This document shows positions 8,962-35,196 of a stretch of DNA of 35,196 nt, one piece after another. How positions within the stretch are numbered: position 1 is the stretch's first letter; the number at the start of each line of letters is the position of its first letter. The stretch comes from Magnetococcales bacterium (GTDB lineage: Bacteria > Pseudomonadota > Magnetococcia > Magnetococcales > JADGAP01). The translations under genes were made by a program, and so were the position numbers. The DNA lies in assembly GCA_015231965.1 (NCBI GenBank), contig JADGAP010000016.1:1-35196 (forward strand). Direction: 5' to 3'. Under the pieces are notes generated by a model, which had not been told where the DNA came from, made no database searches, and worked only from the letters and a program-made list of their open reading frames with translations.

Positions 8962-10353
8962 TCACTTCACCCGCCGCCACGCCTCGTGCAGGGCGGCCCG
9001 CACCGTGTCGACGGCGGTGCCTCCGGGGGCGCGGCGGGCGTTGATGGAGGACTCCACGGTCAGTACGTCCGGCGCCTCGGCGGTGATGCGCTCATCCACC
9101 CGTTGCATCTCCTCCACCGGCAGATCGCTCAAGCGTCGTCCGCTGGCCGCCGCCAGGGCGACGATCCGCCCCACCACGCCGTGGGCCTCGCGGAAGGGAA
9201 CCCCTTGCCGCACCAACCAGTCGGCCAGATCGGTGGCGGTGGCGTAGCCCTCCTCGGCCAGGGCGGCCATGCGCTGGGGACGGGGGGTGATGCCGGGAAC
9301 CAACTCGGAAATGGCCCGCACGCAATTTCTCGTCGTCTCCATCAGGTCGAACAGGGGCTCCTTGTCCTCCTGCATGTCCCGATTGTAGGCCAGGGGCAAC
9401 CCCTTCATGGTCACCAGCAGGGAGATCAACGCCCCATGGACCCGCCCCGTCTTGCCCCGCACCAGTTCCGCCACGTCGGGATTTTTCTTTTGCGGCATGA
9501 TGCTCGATCCGGTGCAAAAGGCGTCGGGCAGATCGATGAAGCCGAAGGCCGGAGACATCCAGAGAATCAACTCCTCGGCGAAGCGGGAGAGGTGGGTCAT
9601 GATCAACGAACAGGCGGCGGCCAGTTCGATGGCGAAATCCCGGTCCGAGACCGCGTCCAGCGAGTTGCGGCAGAGGCCGTCGAAGCCCAGTTCCCGGGCC
9701 ACCCACTCCCGGTCGATGGGGAAGGGCGTCCCGGCCAGCGCCGCCGCTCCCAAGGGCAGTTGATTCATGCGCCGCCTCAGGTCGGTGAGTCGGCCATGGT
9801 CCCGCTCCAGCATTTCGACGTAGGCCAAAAGGTGATGGGCGAAGCTCACCGGCTGGGCGATTTGCAGATGGGTGAAGCCGGGCATGACCGTCTCCACATG
9901 ATGTTGCGCCAGCCCCACCAACTGCCGCTGCAGGCCGCGAATCCCCTCCTCCGCCAGCAGATCCACCTCATCCCGCAGATAAAGACGGATGTCGGTGGCG
10001 ACCTGATCGTTGCGCGAGCGGGCGGTGTGCAACTTGCCCGCCGTCGGCCCGATAAGCTCCTTGAGCCGGGACTCCACGTGCATGTGGATGTCCTCCAGCC
10101 GGGGGGAAAAGGGGAGCTTCCCCTCCTCCAACTCCTGTTTCACCTGATCCAGCCCGCCGACGATGGCCCGCGCCTCGTCGTCGCCGAGGATCCCCTGCCG
10201 CGCCAACATCCGGGCATGGACCTGGGAGGCCCGGATGTCGTGGCGAAACAGCCGGTAATCGTAGTGAATGGAGGCGGAAAAGGCCTCCACGAAGGCGTCG
10301 GTGGGCTGGGTGAAACGGCCCCCCCAGGGTTTGGCGGCGTCGTGGCTGGTCAT
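8962..10353 (-). CDS. argH: Argininosuccinate lyase
   Basis: ArgH splits argininosuccinate into arginine and fumarate, the last step of arginine synthesis. It begins [27 protein letters not shown] and contains [61 protein letters not shown] and the fumarase/aspartase-superfamily signature [16 protein letters not shown]. The length of 463 residues matches the family. The ATG has GGAG 5 nt upstream. It lies downstream of argG with an 83-nt gap that contains a 9-bp GC hairpin. Confidence 0.98.
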
Positions 10354-10394
10354 CGGCGCTCCGTATGATTCTGGTGATGATCGCGAAAGGAGAA

Positions 10395-10422
10395 CCGGGC
10401 CGGAGGCCTCCCCCCGGCCCGG
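10395..10422 (-). repeat. GC-rich hairpin between argG and argH
   Basis: Perfect 9-bp arms (10395-10403 with 10414-10422, CCGGGCCGG type) enclose a 10-nt loop. No clear T-run follows on the minus strand, so it is more likely a transcript-processing or stability element, or a weak terminator. Confidence 0.45.
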
Positions 10423-10436
10423 CGCGAAACTCCCGG

Positions 10437-11654
<1,218 letters not shown>

Positions 11655-11699
11655 TGCGCTCTCCTTGCGAATCTTGCGAATCTTGACCAACCCCCTGCG

Positions 11700-11727
11700 A
11701 AAAAGCCCCGGCGGCCCAACGCCGCCG
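11700..11727 (-). terminator. Terminator-like hairpin between argF and argG
   Basis: On the minus strand a 7-bp GC stem (11709-11715 with 11721-11727) with a 5-nt loop is followed by GGGGC and then five T residues (complement of 11700-11704). It lies between the argF stop and the argG start. It could end or attenuate transcription from argD/argF before argG. Confidence 0.6.
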
Positions 11728-11746
11728 CTTTAAGCCGACGTCCGGA

Positions 11747-12730
11747 TCACCATCCGGAGCCGCCGCGCATCAACCATTCCAAAATCGCCTTCTGCACGTG
11801 CAGGCGATTTTCCGCCTCGTCCCACACCACCGATTGAGGGCCGTCGATCACCTCGGCGGAGACCTCCTCGCCGCGATGGGCGGGCAGGCAGTGCATGAAC
11901 AGGGCCTCCTTGTCGGCCAGGGCCATCAGGGGACCGTCCACCACGTAGCCTTTAAAGGCCTCCTGCCGCCGCAGCCGCTCCTCCTCCTGGCCCATGGAGG
12001 TCCAGACGTCGGTGGTCACCAGATGAGCCCCGGCGGCGGCCTCCCGGGGATCCCGCACCACCTCCACCGAGGCGTTGGCCCCCGATTCGGCGATGAGGCG
12101 GCGGGTTTTGTCCAGCACCGCGTCGCAGGGTTGATACTCCCGGGGGCAGGCGATGACCAGATGGAACCCCGCCATGCGGGCCGCCTGAATCCAGGTGTTG
12201 GCCATGTTGTTGCCATCGCCGATCCAGGCCACCTTCTTGCCCCGCAGGGAGCCCACCCCCCGCTGCTCCTCGAAGGTGAAGAGATCCGCCAGCACCTGAC
12301 AGGGATGAAAGCTGTCCGACAGACCGTTGATCACCGGAATGCCGGCGTGTTGCGCCATCAGCTCCACGTTTTGGTGGGCGAAGGTGCGCACCATCAGGCC
12401 ATCGACGTAACGGGACAACACCCGGGCGCTGTCGGCGATGGGTTCGCCCCGCCCCAACTGCAACTCCCGCGACGACAAAAACAACGCCATCCCCCCCAAT
12501 TGAAACATCCCCGCCTCGAAGGAGACCCGGGTGCGGGTGGAGGATTTTTCAAAAATCATCCCCAGGGTGCGTCCCTCCAGGGTGCGGTGGGGCTCCCCCC
12601 GATGTTGCATTCCCTTGAGGACGCCCGCCCGGTGAAACAGATGGGACATCTCCTCCGGACGCACGTCGTCCAGGGTCAAGAGATCGTGTTTTTTGGGGAG
12701 AGGATTAGGCATGGGGTTATCCAAGTTCAC
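11747..12730 (-). CDS. argF: Ornithine carbamoyltransferase
   Basis: ArgF makes citrulline from ornithine and carbamoyl phosphate. The carbamoyl-phosphate site FEKSSTRTRVSFEAGMFQLGG, the HPCQVLADLFTFEE motif and the ornithine-side motif MHCLPAHRGEEVSAEV are all present. Length is about 327 residues. The frame opens at GTG 12730, and an in-frame ATG at 12712 (MPNPLPKKHDLL) is an alternative; neither has a strong ribosome-binding site. Upstream is the cyclase-like gene, 46 nt away, which separates argF from argD. Confidence 0.97.
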   Translation of the reverse strand: MNLDNPMPNPLPKKHDLLTLDDVRPEEMSHLFHRAGVLKGMQHRGEPHRTLEGRTLGMIFEKSSTRTRVSFEAGMFQLGGMALFLSSRELQLGRGEPIADSARVLSRYVDGLMVRTFAHQNVELMAQHAGIPVINGLSDSFHPCQVLADLFTFEEQRGVGSLRGKKVAWIGDGNNMANTWIQAARMAGFHLVIACPREYQPCDAVLDKTRRLIAESGANASVEVVRDPREAAAGAHLVTTDVWTSMGQEEERLRRQEAFKGYVVDGPLMALADKEALFMHCLPAHRGEEVSAEVIDGPQSVVWDEAENRLHVQKAILEWLMRGGSGW

Positions 12731-12776
12731 GTTACGGAGAAATACTCAAAAGCAATCCATGGTCCAGATCCAGTCC

Positions 12777-13955
12777 TCACGGTGGGTTCACGCCATGTCG
12801 CGTAGCCATCAATCCAAGTGCTTCCACCGTGTCATCCGGATCTTCCAAGGTTTCCGTACCATAAGAATCAGGCGGCGTATCGGTACGGGATTTGTTCCAC
12901 AACGCCGCCAAGACTCTCAACCTCTTCCGATGCCTTTCCGGAACATCGATGGAATCCTCCAGGGAATCCCGGTTCCATACAAAGGGACGCATGACATGAC
13001 CGCCCTCCTGGGACGCGAAAAACGCCTCACAAAATTCCTGAACCGCTTGAGCTTCGGGCATCTTTTGATCCTTCAGTTTATCTTCAAGATCGTGTAGCGA
13101 TTTATTGGGCTCGGAATCCTCCATGTCTATCCAAAAAAAGGGGTAGGGGCGTCCAGCCGTAACGCCCTTCAACTCGATTCCGCCATCATATCGAAAAAAC
13201 ATCGTCAACTCTGGATCGTTCCTGACAAGATCACTCACATTACGGTAGGTGCTGGAAAGCATCCACGCCAGATCCACCGTCAGCGCCAGCTTTCTTGGCG
13301 TTGCGCGAGTAGCGACCCGGAATCCCGTGTCCATTGAAGGACCGATGAAGTCGCGAATCAGCCCCGCGCGCCCGAAGGGCTCCGGCGAATAATACGTATT
13401 CAGGCATTTCATGTTGGAAACGACGGAGTCGTCGTCATCGCAATCATCTTCAAGACGACCGCGGAATCTCGACCTTAATACGACTTCCGTGTTGTTGACG
13501 GGAAATCCCGCGAGCCATGCCGCCGCCTTGAGGTCCAATTTTGGAAACTTGCTTTTCAACTCGGGACGATACTGATTGACCGCCATCTTCCAGGCGAGTA
13601 CGCATGTCAGGATTTGATGTTGATCGCTGATTATTTTCTGATAAATGACCTCGTCTCCTGCGGCTTTCCAAAATTCAGGTGCCTCGCCGGGTTGCCATCT
13701 TTTACGAGTTCTCAGGAGATGGGACGTCCTTTGCCAATAATCAGCGAAGTATTTTTCGATTCTTCCATAAAATTGCGTAATAGGAACAAACCACGGCTCC
13801 GACGTCGCCTCATCCGCCTGATCTCCACCTCCCTTGGAGGCATCCTGCTTGAAAGCCGTCGAGTTGACGACATCGACGCTCAAGAAAAGCCTCAACTTGG
13901 GATGAAGAAATTCCGGCCAAGTTTCCGGCGGCGGATCTCGGTCATGTTCGCTCAA
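12777..13955 (-). CDS. Divergent class III nucleotidyl cyclase-like protein
   Basis: The 392-residue product has the layout of a class III adenylate/guanylate cyclase catalytic domain. LRLFLSVDVVNSTAF at 21-35 supplies a metal-binding Asp (D28). FWKAAGDEVIYQ at 95-106 supplies the second (D101), with K97 at the usual base-recognising position. LKAAAWLAGFPVNNTEVVL at 142-160 fits the central strand. FIGPSMDTGFRVATRATPRKLALTVDLA at 203-230 sits where cyclases carry the D-x-x-N-x-x-x-R motif, but the Asn position is not conserved. No membrane helix or sensor domain is visible; the C-terminal ~170 residues are unrecognised. The start is TTG at 13955, overlapping the peptidase stop by 4 nt with GGAGAG 8 nt upstream, so the two are probably translationally coupled. 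Composition is less GC-rich than the flanking arg genes. The cyclase fold is well supported by motifs; the activity and nucleotide used are unknown. Confidence 0.75.
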   Translation of the reverse strand: MSEHDRDPPPETWPEFLHPKLRLFLSVDVVNSTAFKQDASKGGGDQADEATSEPWFVPITQFYGRIEKYFADYWQRTSHLLRTRKRWQPGEAPEFWKAAGDEVIYQKIISDQHQILTCVLAWKMAVNQYRPELKSKFPKLDLKAAAWLAGFPVNNTEVVLRSRFRGRLEDDCDDDDSVVSNMKCLNTYYSPEPFGRAGLIRDFIGPSMDTGFRVATRATPRKLALTVDLAWMLSSTYRNVSDLVRNDPELTMFFRYDGGIELKGVTAGRPYPFFWIDMEDSEPNKSLHDLEDKLKDQKMPEAQAVQEFCEAFFASQEGGHVMRPFVWNRDSLEDSIDVPERHRKRLRVLAALWNKSRTDTPPDSYGTETLEDPDDTVEALGLMATRHGVNPP

Positions 13956-14500
13956 TGAACCAACTCTCCAGTCAGCCCCAGAGAGTCCGCACGAATTTTC
14001 GCTGCGGAAACGGATACATCGAAATGCTTGGCGATGGCCATCGGATCGCCGTCATTCTCGAAGAAGACGTTGCGAAACGCTGATTCCGGCATGAGAAACG
14101 CCGCGGCGAACCAGTGCGCCTCGGATTCGGTTCTGCCCGACCCGTATCGGGCCACTTTCAAGGGCCGTTGATCTTGTTTCAGGATCTTCAGCGGATACAG
14201 AAAGTGGAGGATGTAATGGCCGATCTCGTGCGCAATGGTGAACCGATCCCGTTCATGGCTGGAGCTGCGTCCAAGATAGATCTTGAAGTCGCCTACGCCG
14301 TCAATTTGAATGGAACCGTCCATGGTGGAGTCGAGATCCCAGAAATTCTGGAAGATGATCTTCCCTCCCATTTGCTCGACGATAGGCGGCATGGGAGTTC
14401 CCGGCTTGTATTCAAGCTGCCTGGCGACGGATTCCGCCAGTTGCATCACGGACTGTTTCGTCAGATTGCATGGTTCCGGTCCACTGTACGCGCTTTCCAT
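13952..14500 (-). CDS. ImmA/IrrE-family zinc metallopeptidase
   Basis: The product is about 182 residues and has the zinc motif FTIAHEIGHYILHF (HEIGH at 91-95) and a downstream ESEAHWFAAAFLMP segment, whose Glu should be the third ligand. The C-terminal AIAKHFDVSVSAAKIRADSLGL helix pair is standard for ImmA/IrrE proteins. Family members cleave specific transcriptional repressors (for example ImmR or DdrO) upon a signal. No helix-turn-helix domain is fused and no repressor gene is adjacent. I place the start at ATG 14500, preceded by GGGAGA, rather than GTG at 14530, which lacks such a site. The stop overlaps the TTG of the cyclase-like gene. The pair interrupts the arginine cluster between argD and argF. 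Confidence 0.9.
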   Translation of the reverse strand: MESAYSGPEPCNLTKQSVMQLAESVARQLEYKPGTPMPPIVEQMGGKIIFQNFWDLDSTMDGSIQIDGVGDFKIYLGRSSSHERDRFTIAHEIGHYILHFLYPLKILKQDQRPLKVARYGSGRTESEAHWFAAAFLMPESAFRNVFFENDGDPMAIAKHFDVSVSAAKIRADSLGLTGELVH

Positions 14501-14553
14501 CGTCGCTCTCCCGTGTTCGCGCGTGATCACCCGACAGTTTAGACGATTTCAAC

Positions 14554-15723
14554 CTAGAAAAGGTCCGTCATGGCCCCATCGAGAATGGCCACGGCCTGGT
14601 CCATCTCCGCTTCACTGACCACCAGGGGGGGGAGCATGCGCAGGGTGGTTCCCAGTTGGCAGCTGATGAGCAACCCCCGGGAGAGACAGATGGCGTTGAG
14701 TTCCTCGGCGGGGCAGTTGAGTTCCACCCCCACCATCAACCCCCGCCCCCGCACCTGCTTGACCAGCTTGTGCCGTTGGATGAGGGGTTGCAGCTTGGCC
14801 CGCAACTGTTCGCCCTTGGCCGTCACCGAGGCCAGCAGGCCGTCATCCAGCAGAACCTCCAGGGTGGCGAGGGCGGCGGCGCAGGCCAGGGGATTGCCGC
14901 CGAAGGTGGAGCCGTGGGAACCCTGGGAAAAGGAGGCGGCCACCTCGGCCTTGGCCAGGCAGGCCCCCATGGGAACCCCGCCGGCGATGGCCTTGGAGGC
15001 GGTCATGATGTCCGGAACCACGTCGCTCCACTGATGAGCCCACATTTTGCCGGTGCGGCCCATCCCGGTCTGCACCTCGTCCAGCACCAGCAACAGGCCA
15101 TGGCGGTCGGCGATGTCACGCAACGCCGCCAGATAGCCCTCCTCCGGCAGCCGCACCCCGCCCTCGCCCTGGATCGGCTCCATCAGGATGGCGGCGGTGT
15201 AGGGTCCGATGGCCTTTTCCACCGCCGCCGGATCGTTGTACGGCACGTAGTGGAAGCCGGGCAGCAGCGGATCGTACCCTTTATGCACCTTGCTCTGGCC
15301 GGTGGCCGAGAGGGTGGCCATGGTCCGCCCGTGGAAGCTGTTTTCCGCCGTGATGATCTCGAAGCGTCCGGGCAGGCCCCGGTCCTTCATGCATTTGCGC
15401 ACCAGCTTGATGGCCGCTTCGTTGGCCTCGGCACCGCTGTTGCAAAAAAAGACCTGATCGGCGAAACAGGTGGACACCAACCGCTCGGCCAACCGCTCTT
15501 GCAGCGGAATGCGGTAGAGATTGGAGGTGTGCATCAGGGTTCCGGCCTGACGGCGGATCGCCTCCACCACCTTGGGGTGGCAGTGGCCCAGATTGTTCAC
15601 TCCGATGCCGGAGAGAAAATCCAGATATTCCTTGCCCTGCGAATCCCACAGCCGAACCCCCTCCCCCCGCTCGAAAGCGACGGGAAAACGTCCGTAGGTG
15701 GGCATGACCGCGCTGCTGTTCAT
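14554..15723 (-). CDS. argD: Acetylornithine aminotransferase
   Basis: ArgD is a PLP class III aminotransferase that makes N-acetylornithine. Motifs include LDFLSGIGVNNLGHCHPKVVEAI, FFCNSGAEANEAAIKLVRK, SFHGRTMATLSATGQ, EPIQGEGGVRLPEEGYL, LLVLDEVQTGMGRTGKMWAHQ and TASKAIAGGVPMGACLAK, where the lysine is the expected PLP residue. I favour ATG 15723 because GGAG lies about 6 nt upstream; ATG 15735 in the same frame has none. The length is 389 residues, normal. It probably heads the argD-F-G-H group, now split by the peptidase/cyclase islet. Confidence 0.97.
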   Translation of the reverse strand: MNSSAVMPTYGRFPVAFERGEGVRLWDSQGKEYLDFLSGIGVNNLGHCHPKVVEAIRRQAGTLMHTSNLYRIPLQERLAERLVSTCFADQVFFCNSGAEANEAAIKLVRKCMKDRGLPGRFEIITAENSFHGRTMATLSATGQSKVHKGYDPLLPGFHYVPYNDPAAVEKAIGPYTAAILMEPIQGEGGVRLPEEGYLAALRDIADRHGLLLVLDEVQTGMGRTGKMWAHQWSDVVPDIMTASKAIAGGVPMGACLAKAEVAASFSQGSHGSTFGGNPLACAAALATLEVLLDDGLLASVTAKGEQLRAKLQPLIQRHKLVKQVRGRGLMVGVELNCPAEELNAICLSRGLLISCQLGTTLRMLPPLVVSEAEMDQAVAILDGAMTDLF

Positions 15724-15755
15724 CCTCCGCTCCATGAATAAACGTCAAAATGTTC

Positions 15756-22322: not shown

Positions 22323-23552
22323 TCAGCCCGCCGCCTCCTCTTCCTCGTCGAAGAACTCGTCGTAGAAGATATAGGGGTTGTCGCGAGGAGCGTTGATCTG
22401 GTTCGGATTGGGCTCCAACTCCAACTGCTGGAGGAAGTAGGCCAACCCCACCCGCTGGATGGTTTCGCCGATGCGCTCGCGGTTTTGTCCGTTCTCTTCC
22501 CAGTAATCCCAGGTTTTCTCCAGAAGATCCTTGAAATCCTGGTAATCGTCATCCTTGTCCATCTTCATGAAGGGAACCAGCACGGTGCCCATCAAGGCCC
22601 CTTCGACGATGGGGGCCTTGGCACCCATCAGGATGACCGCGCCGGTGTCCTCGCCCACATGCAGCGCCTTGGGCATGACGTTAATGCAGTGCATGCACTT
22701 GACGCACTCGCCGTTGCGAATATTGAGGGTTTCGGCGTTGACGTCCACCTCGATGCAGCGGGAGGGGCACATCAGGGCGACATGGTTGACCATGTCGAAT
22801 CCCTGCTTGGGATCCTTGTGCTTGGCGAAGTAGTTCTTCAACTCGGCGGCGTTGATCCGGATGTCGTCCTTCCAGATGCCGATGATCGCCAAGTCGGAGC
22901 GGGCGTTGGCCGCGACGCAGTCGTTGGGGCAGCCGGAGGCCTTGATCTTGAACTTGTAGGGGAAGGCCGGGCGGTGGAGTTCATCCATCACGTGGTTGGT
23001 GATGTTGTGGATGAGGTCCATGGTGTCGATGCAGGCGGCGTCGCAACGGGACTTGCCCAGGCAGGCGGAGGGGGTGCGGTTGGACGAGCCGGAGCCGCCC
23101 AGATCCCATCCCGCCGCGGCGAGTTCGTCCCACATCAGCTCCAGGTGGTTGGTGCGGGTGCCCAGGAAGATGATGTCGCCGGTGGTGCCGTGCAGGTTCA
23201 TCAGGCCCGAGCCGTACTTGTTCCAAATCCCCATCAGGAAGCGTAGCGCCTCGGTGGTGTAGTAGAGGCCGGTGGGGGGAATGACGCGCACGGTGTGAAA
23301 CTGCGCCACCCCGGGAACCTCGTTGGGGATGTCGGTGTAGCGCCCGATGATGCCCGCGCCGTAACCGGTCACGCCCACCAGACCGCCGTGCTTCCAGTGG
23401 CCCCGGTTGTCCGAGTAGGAGATTTCCAACTGCTTCAGCATGTCGTTGTTGTAGCGGGGGGTGTGAACCGCCTCCTGCTTGATCTGGTCGACAAAGCTGG
23501 GCCATTGCCCGCCCGAAAGCTCGTCCAGCATCGGTGTTTTAACGTCTGACAT
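22323..23552 (-). CDS. dsrA: Dissimilatory sulfite reductase alpha subunit
   Basis: DsrA pairs with DsrB in the alpha2beta2 enzyme that converts sulfite and protein-bound sulfide. TPMLDELSGGQWPSFVDQIKQEA starts the family region. DLGGSGSSNRTPSACLGKSRCDAAC at 150-174 and ASGCPNDC at 205-212 supply siroheme-cluster cysteines, and ECVKCMHCINVMPKALH at 282-298 is the ferredoxin site. KHGGLVGVTGYGAGIIGRY and GAKAPIVEGALMGTVLVPF resemble the reductive bacterial type in my recollection. The start ATG 23552 follows AGGAGG at ideal spacing. The product has 409 residues. The C-terminus is an acidic EEEEAAG tail. Confidence 0.97.
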   Translation of the reverse strand: MSDVKTPMLDELSGGQWPSFVDQIKQEAVHTPRYNNDMLKQLEISYSDNRGHWKHGGLVGVTGYGAGIIGRYTDIPNEVPGVAQFHTVRVIPPTGLYYTTEALRFLMGIWNKYGSGLMNLHGTTGDIIFLGTRTNHLELMWDELAAAGWDLGGSGSSNRTPSACLGKSRCDAACIDTMDLIHNITNHVMDELHRPAFPYKFKIKASGCPNDCVAANARSDLAIIGIWKDDIRINAAELKNYFAKHKDPKQGFDMVNHVALMCPSRCIEVDVNAETLNIRNGECVKCMHCINVMPKALHVGEDTGAVILMGAKAPIVEGALMGTVLVPFMKMDKDDDYQDFKDLLEKTWDYWEENGQNRERIGETIQRVGLAYFLQQLELEPNPNQINAPRDNPYIFYDEFFDEEEEAAG

Positions 23553-23759
23553 TCCATCTCCTCCTGGTGGGGTTTCGAGAGGACGGTGCAGCCCGGACGA
23601 AACGAGCCGCCCCGGGGGGTCCCTGTAGTGGTTAAACGCGCCCTTCCGGCTCTTTTCGACCGCTTTCCCGTCCCCACCGAAGGGGTGGGAACGCATGGGC
23701 GGGGCCGGTACTCAAACAGTCTATTAGCATATCGTTATGCCATAATATTAAATGAAACG

Positions 23760-25642: not shown

Positions 25643-26497
25643 TCATCCCCGGCCCCGCCCGCGACGGGTCAACGCCAGGGGGGGAACCGCCTGACTCACC
25701 TTTTCGGCGATGGCCAGATAGCGCAAGGCGTATTCCGACGTGGGATCGGCCAACACCAGGGGGACGCCGGAGTCGCACTGTTCGCGAATCACCGGGGCCA
25801 GGGGAATGTCGCCCAGAAAGGGCACCCCCTTGAGGTCCGCCTCCCGCCGTCCGCCGCCGTTGGCGAAGACGTCGGTGCGCTCGTGGCAGTGGGGGCAGAC
25901 GAAGTAGCTCATGTTTTCCACGATGCCCAGAATCGGAACCTGGGCCAGGTTGAACAGGGTGATGCCCCGCCGCACGTCGCTCAAGGCCACGTCCTGGGGC
26001 GTGGTGACGATCACCGCCCCCGCCACCTCGATCTGCTGCACCATGGAAAGCTGAACATCCCCGGTGCCGGGGGGCAGATCGATCACCAGATAGTCCAGAT
26101 ACTCCCCGTAGGGAACCCACTTGACCTCGTGGAAAAATTGCTGGATCACCTGGAAGAGCAACGGCCCCCGCCACGCCAGGGCCTGCTCCGGGTTGACCAT
26201 GAAACCGATGGACATCAACGGCATGTTGTGGGCCATCACCGCCCGAATCCGTCCCATGACGTCGGGCTTGGGCTCCTGCTTCACCCCCAGCATGGTGGGA
26301 ATGCTGGGTCCGAAGAGGTCCGCGTCCAGCAACCCCACCTTGTGTCCCAACTGCTTGAGGGCGAAGGCCAGGTTCACCGCCAGGGTGGATTTGCCCACGC
26401 CCCCCTTGGCGCTGGCCACCGCGATGACGTTCTTCACCCCTTCCACGGTCTGCTTTTGCGGCAGACCGGCGTCGCTCCGGGTCTCCGTACCGCTCAT
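25643..26497 (-). CDS. Mrp/NBP35-type P-loop Fe-S cluster carrier
   Basis: Mrp (ApbC) proteins carry and transfer [4Fe-4S] clusters using a deviant Walker A ATPase. NVIAVASAKGGVGKSTLAVNLAFALKQLG at 23-51 has KGGVGKST. LLDADLFGPSIPTMLG, DYLVIDLPPGTGD and NMSYFVCPHCHERTDVF (C200xxC203, the cluster ligands) follow. The protein has 284 residues and lacks the N-terminal MIP18/DUF59 domain seen in many Mrps. The ATG has AGGAAGG upstream. Location near dsr may reflect need for Fe-S clusters in DsrAB, but the gene is also close to an ABC exporter and could serve elsewhere. Confidence 0.93.
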   Translation of the reverse strand: MSGTETRSDAGLPQKQTVEGVKNVIAVASAKGGVGKSTLAVNLAFALKQLGHKVGLLDADLFGPSIPTMLGVKQEPKPDVMGRIRAVMAHNMPLMSIGFMVNPEQALAWRGPLLFQVIQQFFHEVKWVPYGEYLDYLVIDLPPGTGDVQLSMVQQIEVAGAVIVTTPQDVALSDVRRGITLFNLAQVPILGIVENMSYFVCPHCHERTDVFANGGGRREADLKGVPFLGDIPLAPVIREQCDSGVPLVLADPTSEYALRYLAIAEKVSQAVPPLALTRRGRGRG

Positions 26498-32179: not shown

Positions 32180-32234
32180 ATCCTATTCCCGAGCAGGTCA
32201 AGAAGGGGTCAACGGAAGGTCAAGTTTGGGTCAA
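32180..32234 (-). promoter_or_regulatory. Four phased direct repeats and -10 upstream of sulP
   Basis: GGTCAA occurs at 32196, 32207, 32218 and 32229, each exactly 11 bp apart; in the gene direction this is TTGACC four times. A TAGGAT -10-like element (complement of 32180-32185) lies 10 nt past the last repeat, the geometry of PhoB/OmpR-activated promoters where repeats replace the -35. The last repeat overlaps the histidine-kinase stop codon. Confidence 0.75.
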
Positions 32235-33565
32235 GAGGGGGAAAAAAGGGTGGGCGAGGGTGAATTTTTTCCCCGGGAGGGGAGGTCGGCGGCGGGAGGA
32301 AAGCACAGCACCGCCTCCGTCCCCTCCCCCTCCCGACTGGTGATGATCACCTCCCAACGACACCGCTCGCAAATGCGCTTGACCAGCGACAGGCCGATGC
32401 CCGCCCCCTGACTGGTCACGCCCCGGTAGTGACGATGGAAAATCCGGGAGAGTTCATCGGCCCGAATGCCGCTCCCGGTGTCGGCGACGGAAAGGCGGTT
32501 CGCGGTCAGGGTGAGGCGAATTTCCCCTTCCCGGGTGTAGGAAAAGGCGTTGCGCACCAGGTTGCCCACCACGATGTGGAGAAACACCCAATCCACCGGC
32601 AACTGGGGATCCGCCTGGAGATCCAGCGCCACCCCCACCGGCTTGTCCCCCAGCAGATACCGGCTCTGCTCGACCACGGCCCGCACCACCTCGGCGGCGG
32701 AACAACGGGTTTCGGTGCGGGCCTGCAGCGACTCCTCCCGGGAGAGCAGGAGCAAGGCGGTGGTCAGAACCGTCATCTCCCGCGCCGCCCGGTCGGCCCG
32801 CTCCACCCGCCGTCGCGTCCGGGGCGAGAGGTCGTCGTCGTCCAGTAAAATTTCCACCGCCCCTTGAATGATGGCCAGGGGGGTGCGCAATTCGTGACTC
32901 ACATCGGCGGTAAAGGCCCGTTCCCGTTCGAGGAAGGCCTGCAATTGGGCGTGGCGTTGATCAAAAACCTGGGCCAACTCCCCCACTTCGTCGCCGGAAT
33001 AGGGGTTCTCCCGGGAGGCGCTTTCGTCCATTCCCAGGGTGCGCACCCGCTCCGCCAGCTCCGACACCGGCGCGATGACCCGACCCGCCAACCACAGCCC
33101 CCCCGCCGTGGCAAAGAGGATCATCGCCCCCGCCCCCAAGGCGAGAAAGAGCAAAAATCGGGACTCCCGCCGTTGATGCAGCGTGACGTTGTACAACAGG
33201 GAGTAGCGGACCCCTTGCTGCTCATGCACCGCCACCCGCCACTGGGCGTCTCGCCACGCCAGATCGCTCCGCCCCAGGGGCAGGTCGCTCAACTCCGGGG
33301 GAAAGGGGGGATCGGTGGGAATTTCCGGTTGGACGAACCCCAACACCGTCGCCGTGGCCGGGGGCAGGGAGCGGGGATTGCGTCCCCGCCGGGCGACGTA
33401 GTCCTCCAACTCGGCCTTGAGAATTTCGTCGATCAAGCGCACGCCCAAATCGTGGGCGGTAAAATAGAGGCTCACCGCCAGCAACAGGCTCACCACCCCG
33501 CCAAACGAGGCGAAGGCGACGGCGACGCGAAACCGCAGATGGCGCCACTTAAGCCGAAGTCGCAT
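32231..33565 (-). CDS. Two-component sensor histidine kinase
   Basis: The 444-residue protein has a membrane helix at about 14-34, a ~100-residue periplasmic sensor domain, a second helix at about 137-160 and a HAMP-like linker. The phosphorylation site is FTADVSHELRTPLAIIQGA (H224). The ATPase domain has NLVRNAFSY (N339), VADTGSGI and GAGIGLSLVKRICER. The sensor domain has no recognised ligand motif; it is Pro-rich (PEIPTDPPFPPEL). It overlaps the response-regulator gene by 17 nt, so they are co-translated. The next gene, sulP, has the candidate operator for this system. Confidence 0.95.
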   Translation of the reverse strand: MRLRLKWRHLRFRVAVAFASFGGVVSLLLAVSLYFTAHDLGVRLIDEILKAELEDYVARRGRNPRSLPPATATVLGFVQPEIPTDPPFPPELSDLPLGRSDLAWRDAQWRVAVHEQQGVRYSLLYNVTLHQRRESRFLLFLALGAGAMILFATAGGLWLAGRVIAPVSELAERVRTLGMDESASRENPYSGDEVGELAQVFDQRHAQLQAFLERERAFTADVSHELRTPLAIIQGAVEILLDDDDLSPRTRRRVERADRAAREMTVLTTALLLLSREESLQARTETRCSAAEVVRAVVEQSRYLLGDKPVGVALDLQADPQLPVDWVFLHIVVGNLVRNAFSYTREGEIRLTLTANRLSVADTGSGIRADELSRIFHRHYRGVTSQGAGIGLSLVKRICERCRWEVIITSREGEGTEAVLCFPPAADLPSRGKNSPSPTLFSPS

Positions 33566-34238
33566 CGGGATCCGCCATTTGATACCCCACGCCCCGCACG
33601 GTGCGGATCAACGGCGCTTCGCCGGGTTTGTCCACGGCGTCCCGCAGCACGTGCATGTGGGCCTTGAGGGCATCGCTGTCGGGGGGGGAGTCGCCCCACA
33701 CCGCGAACTCCAGATCCGCCCGGCTGACCACGCTGGGCTGACGGCGCAGCAGTATTTCCAGCAACTTGAAGGGGATCGGCGGAAGTTCGAGGCGCCGTTC
33801 GCCCCGGCGCGCGACGCGGGATTCCAGATCCAGCAGCAGATTCCCTGCCTTCAGCCGGTTTTCCGTCACCCGGCCCTGGGCGCGGCGCACCAGGGCCCGC
33901 AGCCGGGTCTCCACCTCCCGCAGGGCGAAGGGTTTGACCACGTAATCGTCGGCCCCGCTCTCCAGGCCCGTGACCTTGTCCTCCAGCGAATCCCGGGCGG
34001 TGAGCATCAACAAGGGGGTCTCCTTGCCCCCCTCCCGCCGCAGTTTGCGGCACAGGGTGATGCCGTCCATCCCGGGCAGAATGAGGTCGAGAACGATCAC
34101 GTCGTAGTCGTTGACCAGGGCCAGGTGCAACCCGGTGACGCCATCCCCCGCCGTGTCCACCACGTGGCCCTTGCCCTCCAGATAGTCGAACATGTTGGCG
34201 ACCAGATCCTGATTGTCCTCGATCACTAGGATGCGCAT
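33549..34238 (-). CDS. OmpR-family response regulator
   Basis: The 229-residue product has a receiver domain with MRILVIEDN (acidic pocket), phosphoacceptor D51 in VIVLDLILPGMDGITL, T80 and K102, then an OmpR/PhoB winged helix from about 130 (LPPIPFKLLEILLRRQPSVVSRADLEFAVWG ... LKAHMHVLRDAVDKPGEAPLIRTVRGVGYQM). ATG 34238 has GGGAAGG 7 nt upstream; the frame extends to 34343 without family sequence. Family members bind paired direct repeats 10-11 bp apart, which matches the repeats before sulP. Confidence 0.96.
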   Translation of the reverse strand: MRILVIEDNQDLVANMFDYLEGKGHVVDTAGDGVTGLHLALVNDYDVIVLDLILPGMDGITLCRKLRREGGKETPLLMLTARDSLEDKVTGLESGADDYVVKPFALREVETRLRALVRRAQGRVTENRLKAGNLLLDLESRVARRGERRLELPPIPFKLLEILLRRQPSVVSRADLEFAVWGDSPPDSDALKAHMHVLRDAVDKPGEAPLIRTVRGVGYQMADPDATSA

Positions 34239-34521
34239 GACGCGACCTTCCCTTCGCCTCGATGATCCGATGAAAATCGGCTTTCCATCCCCCGCCAGAG
34301 GATGCCCTTGAACGCGCCAAGGCGGGTCGATCAACGCCTCCAAGTGCGCGGCGAGCCTGTTGGGGGAGATCCCCCCAAATGGGCGTCAAGAGCCAACAGC
34401 GGGTTGTCCATGCCGTTGGCCCCCCGCCGCCGCCCCAATCCCGCCCCTCAGGGCCAGCAGATGGATGGGCGGAAAACGCCCCTTCCATCCCCTCCCCCAT
34501 GCCCACCAACGCCACCATGAT

Positions 34522-34544
34522 CCGCCATCCCTCGAGGATGGCGG
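34522..34544. repeat. 9-bp inverted repeat upstream of the two-component system
   Basis: Perfect arms 34522-34530 and 34536-34544 (CCGCCATCC type) with a 5-nt loop. A second small dyad, TGAACC/GGTTCA, lies at 34621-34635. No gene is supported in 34239-35106; open frames there have no family-like sequence. Confidence 0.5.
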
Positions 34545-34657
34545 CGGTGCCAGGAAATCGGCCCCGCGGTTCAGAAACGGCGCGAATCTCGCCGCCCTCG
34601 GCCATGGTGTTGGAACCCATTGAACCATCGGTTCATTCTAGCGAACATCCCCCCTTT

Positions 34658-34844
34658 GATCACGGATCGTTCACCGATCATCCACAGGATTTTCCACCCC
34701 CCATCCCCCTGTGATGCACCGGTCGCCCCCTCTTTTTTCCAACCTTATCCCCCGGTTTTCCACCGTTGATTCACAGACTTTTCCACACCCTTCGCGGCCC
34801 GTTATGCCCCCCCTGTCAACCCATGGTCCACCGGGTTATCCACA
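34658..34844 (+). other. Candidate replication origin: DnaA-box and GATC cluster
   Basis: A perfect TTATCCACA DnaA box lies at 34836-34844. One-mismatch boxes are at 34678-34686 (TCATCCACA), 34767-34775 (TGATTCACA) and 34779-34787 (TTTTCCACA), and two-mismatch versions are at 34690 and 34756, all on the same strand. Three GATC sites lie within 22 bp at 34658-34679. Genes to the left all run away from this site, while the partial ORF to the right runs the other way. Origin function is inferred. Confidence 0.55.
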
Positions 34845-35106
34845 GGATTCGGGCAGGTTTTCCGCCGCTCTCCCAGCCACGGCGTCGTCCTTGAACCACG
34901 CACATCAAAATCAACACCTGAAGGCATTCTAAAGTTATCGTCCGTCGGTTCGAAGAGACCCCGAAGTGGACCCGCGGTCGCCAAGGCGGCATGACGCTGA
35001 ACCTCCATGGAACGGCTTGAACCAGGGGGTGCTGAATCGTCAGGAATTATCCTCTCGTGACGTCCACTCGATTCCCCGGTAAACTGGCCCTCCCTTCCCC
35101 ACCTCG

Positions 35107-35196
35107 ATGGACCCGCCTCCCCCCGTGAGCCCGATGGACGACTTCACCGACGCCCCCCCCCTGTCCAACGGAAGAGCGTCGTGTAAGGAAGAGGTA
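35107..35196 (+). CDS. Partial ORF running off the right edge
   Basis: From ATG 35107 (or ATG 35134) a frame stays open to the window end: MDPPPPVSPMDDFTDAPPLS and on. No clear ribosome-binding site is seen, and the sequence is too short to assign. Its position right of the DnaA-box cluster makes a replication- or partition-related gene conceivable but unsupported. Confidence 0.3.
   Translation, partial: MDPPPPVSPMDDFTDAPPLSNGRASCKEEV

Follow-up and report, generated by a model that had tools for sequence, protein, structure and literature searches.

A phased, same-strand DnaA-box array in a Magnetococcales draft genome as a possible non-origin DnaA site near the replication origin

Does a dense cluster of DnaA boxes in a non-coding stretch mark the place where this chromosome begins to replicate? 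The question arises close to the right end of a 35,196-nucleotide stretch (the window), which is the entire contig C77 of a 3,824,539-base draft in 314 contigs, and where a first-pass annotation had suggested a replication origin. The closest relatives compared belong to the same order as the window's genome. They include one complete genome (G010; one contig, 4,719,581 bases), which we take to be Magnetococcus marinus MC-1, so that the order would be Magnetococcales.

The boxes behind that suggestion are present as described, one perfect and three near-perfect on a single strand: the perfect box TTATCCACA (34836-34844, plus strand) forms the right end of the array, and TCATCCACA (34678), TGATTCACA (34767) and TTTTCCACA (34779), all on the plus strand, each have one mismatch. 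In 2000 dinucleotide shuffles of 34240-35196, boxes with at most one mismatch averaged 0.17, and none of the shuffles (0/2000) placed four within 158 bp. No second cluster of at least four boxes within 200 bp occurs in the 608,036 of the genome's 3,824,539 bases examined. Beyond the four boxes first noted, five plus-strand sites have two mismatches, so that 34670-34853 holds nine plus-strand sites with at most two mismatches to TTATNCACA (starting at 34678, 34690, 34712, 34745, 34756, 34767, 34779, 34802 and 34836) and none on the minus strand; shuffles reached at most four. This array (34667-34846, plus strand) was not found elsewhere in the sequences examined, and it is the strongest same-strand array in 2.57 Mb of scanned loci, a total that counts overlaps and comes from loci largely chosen for holding boxes. 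The three GATC sites reported within 22 bp are likewise there (34658-34679; starts 34658, 34665 and 34676), and the window has just one other GATC triple within 25 bp.

The spacing of the sites is as regular as their orientation is uniform. Their offsets (0, 12, 34, 67, 78, 89, 101, 124 and 158) fit an 11.25-bp lattice with R = 0.953 when sites are picked by the DnaA consensus, and 2 of 5000 random placements fitted as well. In a consensus-free test, 34670-34850 matches itself at shifts that are multiples of 11.25 bp, with a periodicity z of 8.2, the highest among 15 regions tested; the top z among 34 control windows was 5.6. Degenerate box-like units occupy most other lattice steps, bringing the array to approximately 16 units in all. 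A chance pattern arising in C-rich intergenic sequence, or a tandem repeat that is decaying and has no function, would find some footing in the composition of the region (skew -0.19) and in a dispersed repeat nearby, but no shuffle among 2000 matched the array in periodicity, just as none did in box number, and we consider this explanation highly improbable. DnaA binding at 34667-34846, as predicted from the sequence, is well supported by the quality, density and phasing of the boxes.

On the left, an OmpR-type response regulator gene (33552-34238, minus strand, start at 34238) reads away from the array, next to a sensor histidine kinase gene (32231-33565, minus strand) whose HAMP, HisKA and HATPase_c domains make it the presumed partner; the Pfam search of the window covered 19 reading frames. 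The earlier view that the flanking genes diverge from the cluster therefore stands for the left side only: on the right no gene is seen, only an open frame from an ATG at 35107 (35107-35168, plus strand), a possible gene start, and then the contig end. The last 28 bases (35169-35196) align with Illumina adapter read-through at 27 of 30 identical columns and are probably a sequencing artefact. Because these bases look like adapter, the ribosome-binding site apparent among them is an artefact as well. A degenerate copy of a dispersed repeat (34967-35037, including GAACCAGGGGGTGCTGAAT) lies between the array and the possible gene start; it has copies at or near the ends of contigs C199, C288, C299, C257, C241 and C189, several of them at the very ends, and it probably breaks the assembly. 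At the opposite end of the contig, a Ser/Thr protein kinase gene (118-2232) lies in a low-GC stretch (39% versus approximately 65% in most of the window).

Two candidates for the right-hand neighbor were rejected. The genome's own dnaA (C135:4176-5306) is truncated by the end of its contig and showed no overlap with the window, and the visible N-terminus at 35107 is, by eye, unlike DnaA; MnmG (gidA) is encoded on C277 and not at the window. The dnaA neighborhoods of relatives that were examined contain no such cluster, except for one in G054, which is outside the order.

OmpR/PhoB-type regulators bind direct repeats approximately 11 bp apart, and here 11.25-bp direct repeats adjoin an OmpR-type gene, so the array could be an operator of the neighboring regulator that resembles DnaA boxes by chance. 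This is very unlikely, since the sites fit the DnaA consensus down to variation at its free position, one of them is a perfect box, and a comparable upstream array is absent from all 19 loci with relatives of the regulator (59-67% identical). The same absence speaks against a conserved promoter function. Rfam gave no match, and a scan of named genomes with the histidine kinase returned distant kinases only. Alternatively, the array could be a DnaA-controlled promoter region serving the right-hand gene or the left-hand two-component system: it sits between a minus-strand gene start and the possible plus-strand start at 35107, and in E. coli DnaA boxes repress promoters such as those of dnaA and mioC, according to a passage in PMC4585315. 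However, no sigma-70-like promoter was found in the array's intergenic stretch, and approximately 430-610 bp separate the array from the start codon on the left and 260-440 bp from the ATG at 35107, which together with the 19 relatives makes this reading unlikely.

Among known DnaA systems, the array shares features with both origin and non-origin sites of E. coli. Passages in PMC6727663 describe low-affinity DnaA sites in E. coli oriC that come in groups of four with 2-bp gaps and thus at an 11-bp pitch, and same-direction boxes favor head-to-tail DnaA oligomers in the account excerpted from PMC10316083. Like the oriC arrays (C1-I3-C2-C3 with R4; R5M-tau2-I1-I2 with R1) as sketched in parts of these two papers, the array has a strong end box and weak sites that run in one direction at a pitch of approximately 11 bp, the arrangement of an E. 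coli-type DnaA oligomer array. Unlike E. coli oriC, with its two facing four-site arrays and DUE, some 16 units run one way here, and neither a DUE nor a facing array was seen. The sequence to the right of 34844 is GC-rich, and up to 35168 no AT-rich unwinding element was found beside the boxes. As an intergenic DnaA-box cluster the array also resembles E. coli datA and DARS, which a section of PMC4585315 presents as non-origin sites, datA lying near oriC. datA consists of five boxes plus an IHF site, and the array is likened to it by layout alone, not by sequence relationship.

The origin of the order can be placed from the complete relative. Sampled GC skew in G010 is positive from 0 to approximately 2.5 Mb and negative beyond 2.75 Mb, and across the 479,581 bases surrounding position 0 the minimum of the cumulative skew falls at 25,761, between an aroE-like gene and hemE (both named by eye; hemE served as the search query). 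The Caulobacter and Rickettsia origins occupy the hemE position according to part of PMC1914354, and among the papers listed from the open-access library searched, none dealt with a Magnetococcus origin. Upstream of hemE at 21 loci, this genome's included, at least three boxes lie within 750 bp in 13 and no boxes in six, the own genome being among the latter. In several families, the boxes stand at matching distances upstream of hemE, with a TCCACAG box last and an AT-rich element following. This last box and AT-rich core were captured in a sequence-only model (R1) of 18 rows linked to hemE, which were selected by eye among 31 upstream stretches (the G004 row coming from a separate analysis), with rows lacking a box beside AT-rich sequence excluded. 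R1 also matches a second G010 site (23,547-23,619; 26.2 bits). The two G010 core matches, at 23.5 kb and 26.9 kb (L112 3547-3619 and 6859-6943), lie approximately 3.3 kb apart in opposite orientation and flank the skew minimum, and perhaps they form a bipartite origin.

Compared with the hemE-type oriC of the order (G010, approximately 25.8 kb), the array is similar in being intergenic and holding several TTATCCACA-type boxes, but it has other gene neighbors, with neither hemE nor the gene that usually precedes oriC (P0006 type) at the window, and it has no plus/minus box pair 15 bp apart and no last box with AT-rich core. The own hemE (C105:739) and the P0006-type relative (C244:23822) lie elsewhere, both without boxes. 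R1 at E values up to 10 gave no matches in the window or in 16 other loci of this genome, and unfiltered it scored at best 5.5 bits in the intergenic stretch 34200-35196. Run over the whole genome, it found C314:40205-40294 (minus strand; 20.4 bits, E = 0.0013), with a runner-up at 9.3 bits, and at E values up to 1 it gave no match in 38 further loci (699 kb). The suggestion that the cluster is a replication origin thus holds for DnaA binding, which the boxes and their phasing support, and not for the oriC core, which is absent here and has its only significant match on C314. Because the core reaches at most 5.5 bits here versus 20.4 bits on C314, the array is more probably a site of DnaA titration or regulation than oriC itself.

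The element on C314 has features of its own. It is a near-copy of the AT-rich core accompanied by weak boxes, with no cluster of at least three boxes having at most one mismatch, and since only weak boxes stand beside a conserved core, it could be a relic. Skew on C314 is mixed and does not switch clearly where the core lies. The match (L229 / L231 10205-10294) is intergenic, between V-ATPase-I-like and vWA-like genes named by eye, and a dispersed hairpin repeat flanks it in inverted copies.

Gene order provides a separate view of where the window lies. Window genes at 8,965-15,744 match G010 genes 16-21 kb to the left of position 0, colinear and with the origin to the right, which puts them approximately 45 kb from the G010 origin; the test covered 480 kb around that origin plus 360 kb of samples, and the window matches amount to one block of neighboring genes. 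Genes of C314 match G010 at 90-97 kb to the left of position 0. GC skew in the window is negative in most 2-kb bins and up to the right end, and this, with the G010 synteny, suggests that the window may be near the origin. The array could then be the chromosomal oriC of the lineage, moved away from hemE, with an unwinding element that is unusual or lies past the contig end and with the C314 element as a relic or second half; an origin could also lie just to the right of 34844. This synteny and skew, a box density in the array unmatched in the 608 kb of this genome examined, boxes better than those at C314, and the box-free own hemE and P0006-type loci, which imply a displaced oriC, all argue for such a move. 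Nevertheless, we regard it as rather doubtful given that no AT-rich unwinding core lies within reach of the boxes, that the core model scores so much lower here than at C314, and that the hemE-type origins tested in three relatives, unlike the array, have no 11-bp pitch.

Periodic box clusters do occur elsewhere in these genomes. Of the other 14 regions tested, only a G023 cluster beside a gene for an MtaB-like radical-SAM protein (z 4.6) and a G003 cluster (z 4.7) exceeded z 4. Their periodicity of approximately 11 bp, absent from the three hemE-type origins, leans towards a non-origin DnaA site. An MtaB-like radical-SAM gene accompanied a DnaA-box cluster at 12 of the 30 tandem-box loci compared, and this genome has its own copy (C270; L235 5051-5330); a conserved DnaA titration locus is possible there. 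The MtaB-linked cluster of the order is like the array in its tandem same-strand boxes, 12 bp apart, and in G010 it lies far from the skew minimum; it differs in its genes, and the copy in this genome, at C270:5051, is separate from the array.

Further clusters were considered and set aside. The G010 MtaB-linked cluster (six perfect boxes, 1,197,362-1,197,654; L158 1501-1793) was rejected as an origin since skew keeps its sign there. G007, the genome with the closest DnaA, carries a one-strand array of seven sites on its contig C60 (L133 1489-1643; offsets 0, 22, 33, 69, 101, 134 and 146), but as an orthologue this array (C60:13936) was rejected because its gene neighbors differ. A G026 box cluster near a relative of the regulator falls inside a coding gene.

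Taken over the alternatives, the reading we prefer, at close to an even chance, is that the array is a non-origin DnaA titration or control site organized head-to-tail in origin-proximal chromosome, with the origin likelier at the hemE-type core on C314. At such a site, the strong boxes would dock DnaA, and a DnaA-ATP oligomer would then spread one way along the weak units. By analogy with datA in E. coli, the site would titrate DnaA or alter its activity. More speculatively, and tentative at best, the approximately 16 units at 11.25-bp pitch could be a one-way DnaA track for one long DnaA-ATP filament; in this Magnetococcales lineage, such a track would serve either as an origin that has been displaced or as a DnaA sink of a new kind.

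For the order, this comparative work places the Magnetococcales origin beside hemE, as in Caulobacter and Rickettsia, and suggests that in the present lineage the origin core has become separated from hemE. DnaA arrays of such length and regularity, lying away from the ancestral origin, would let one test in a natural setting how DnaA oligomers are guided and how they are counted.
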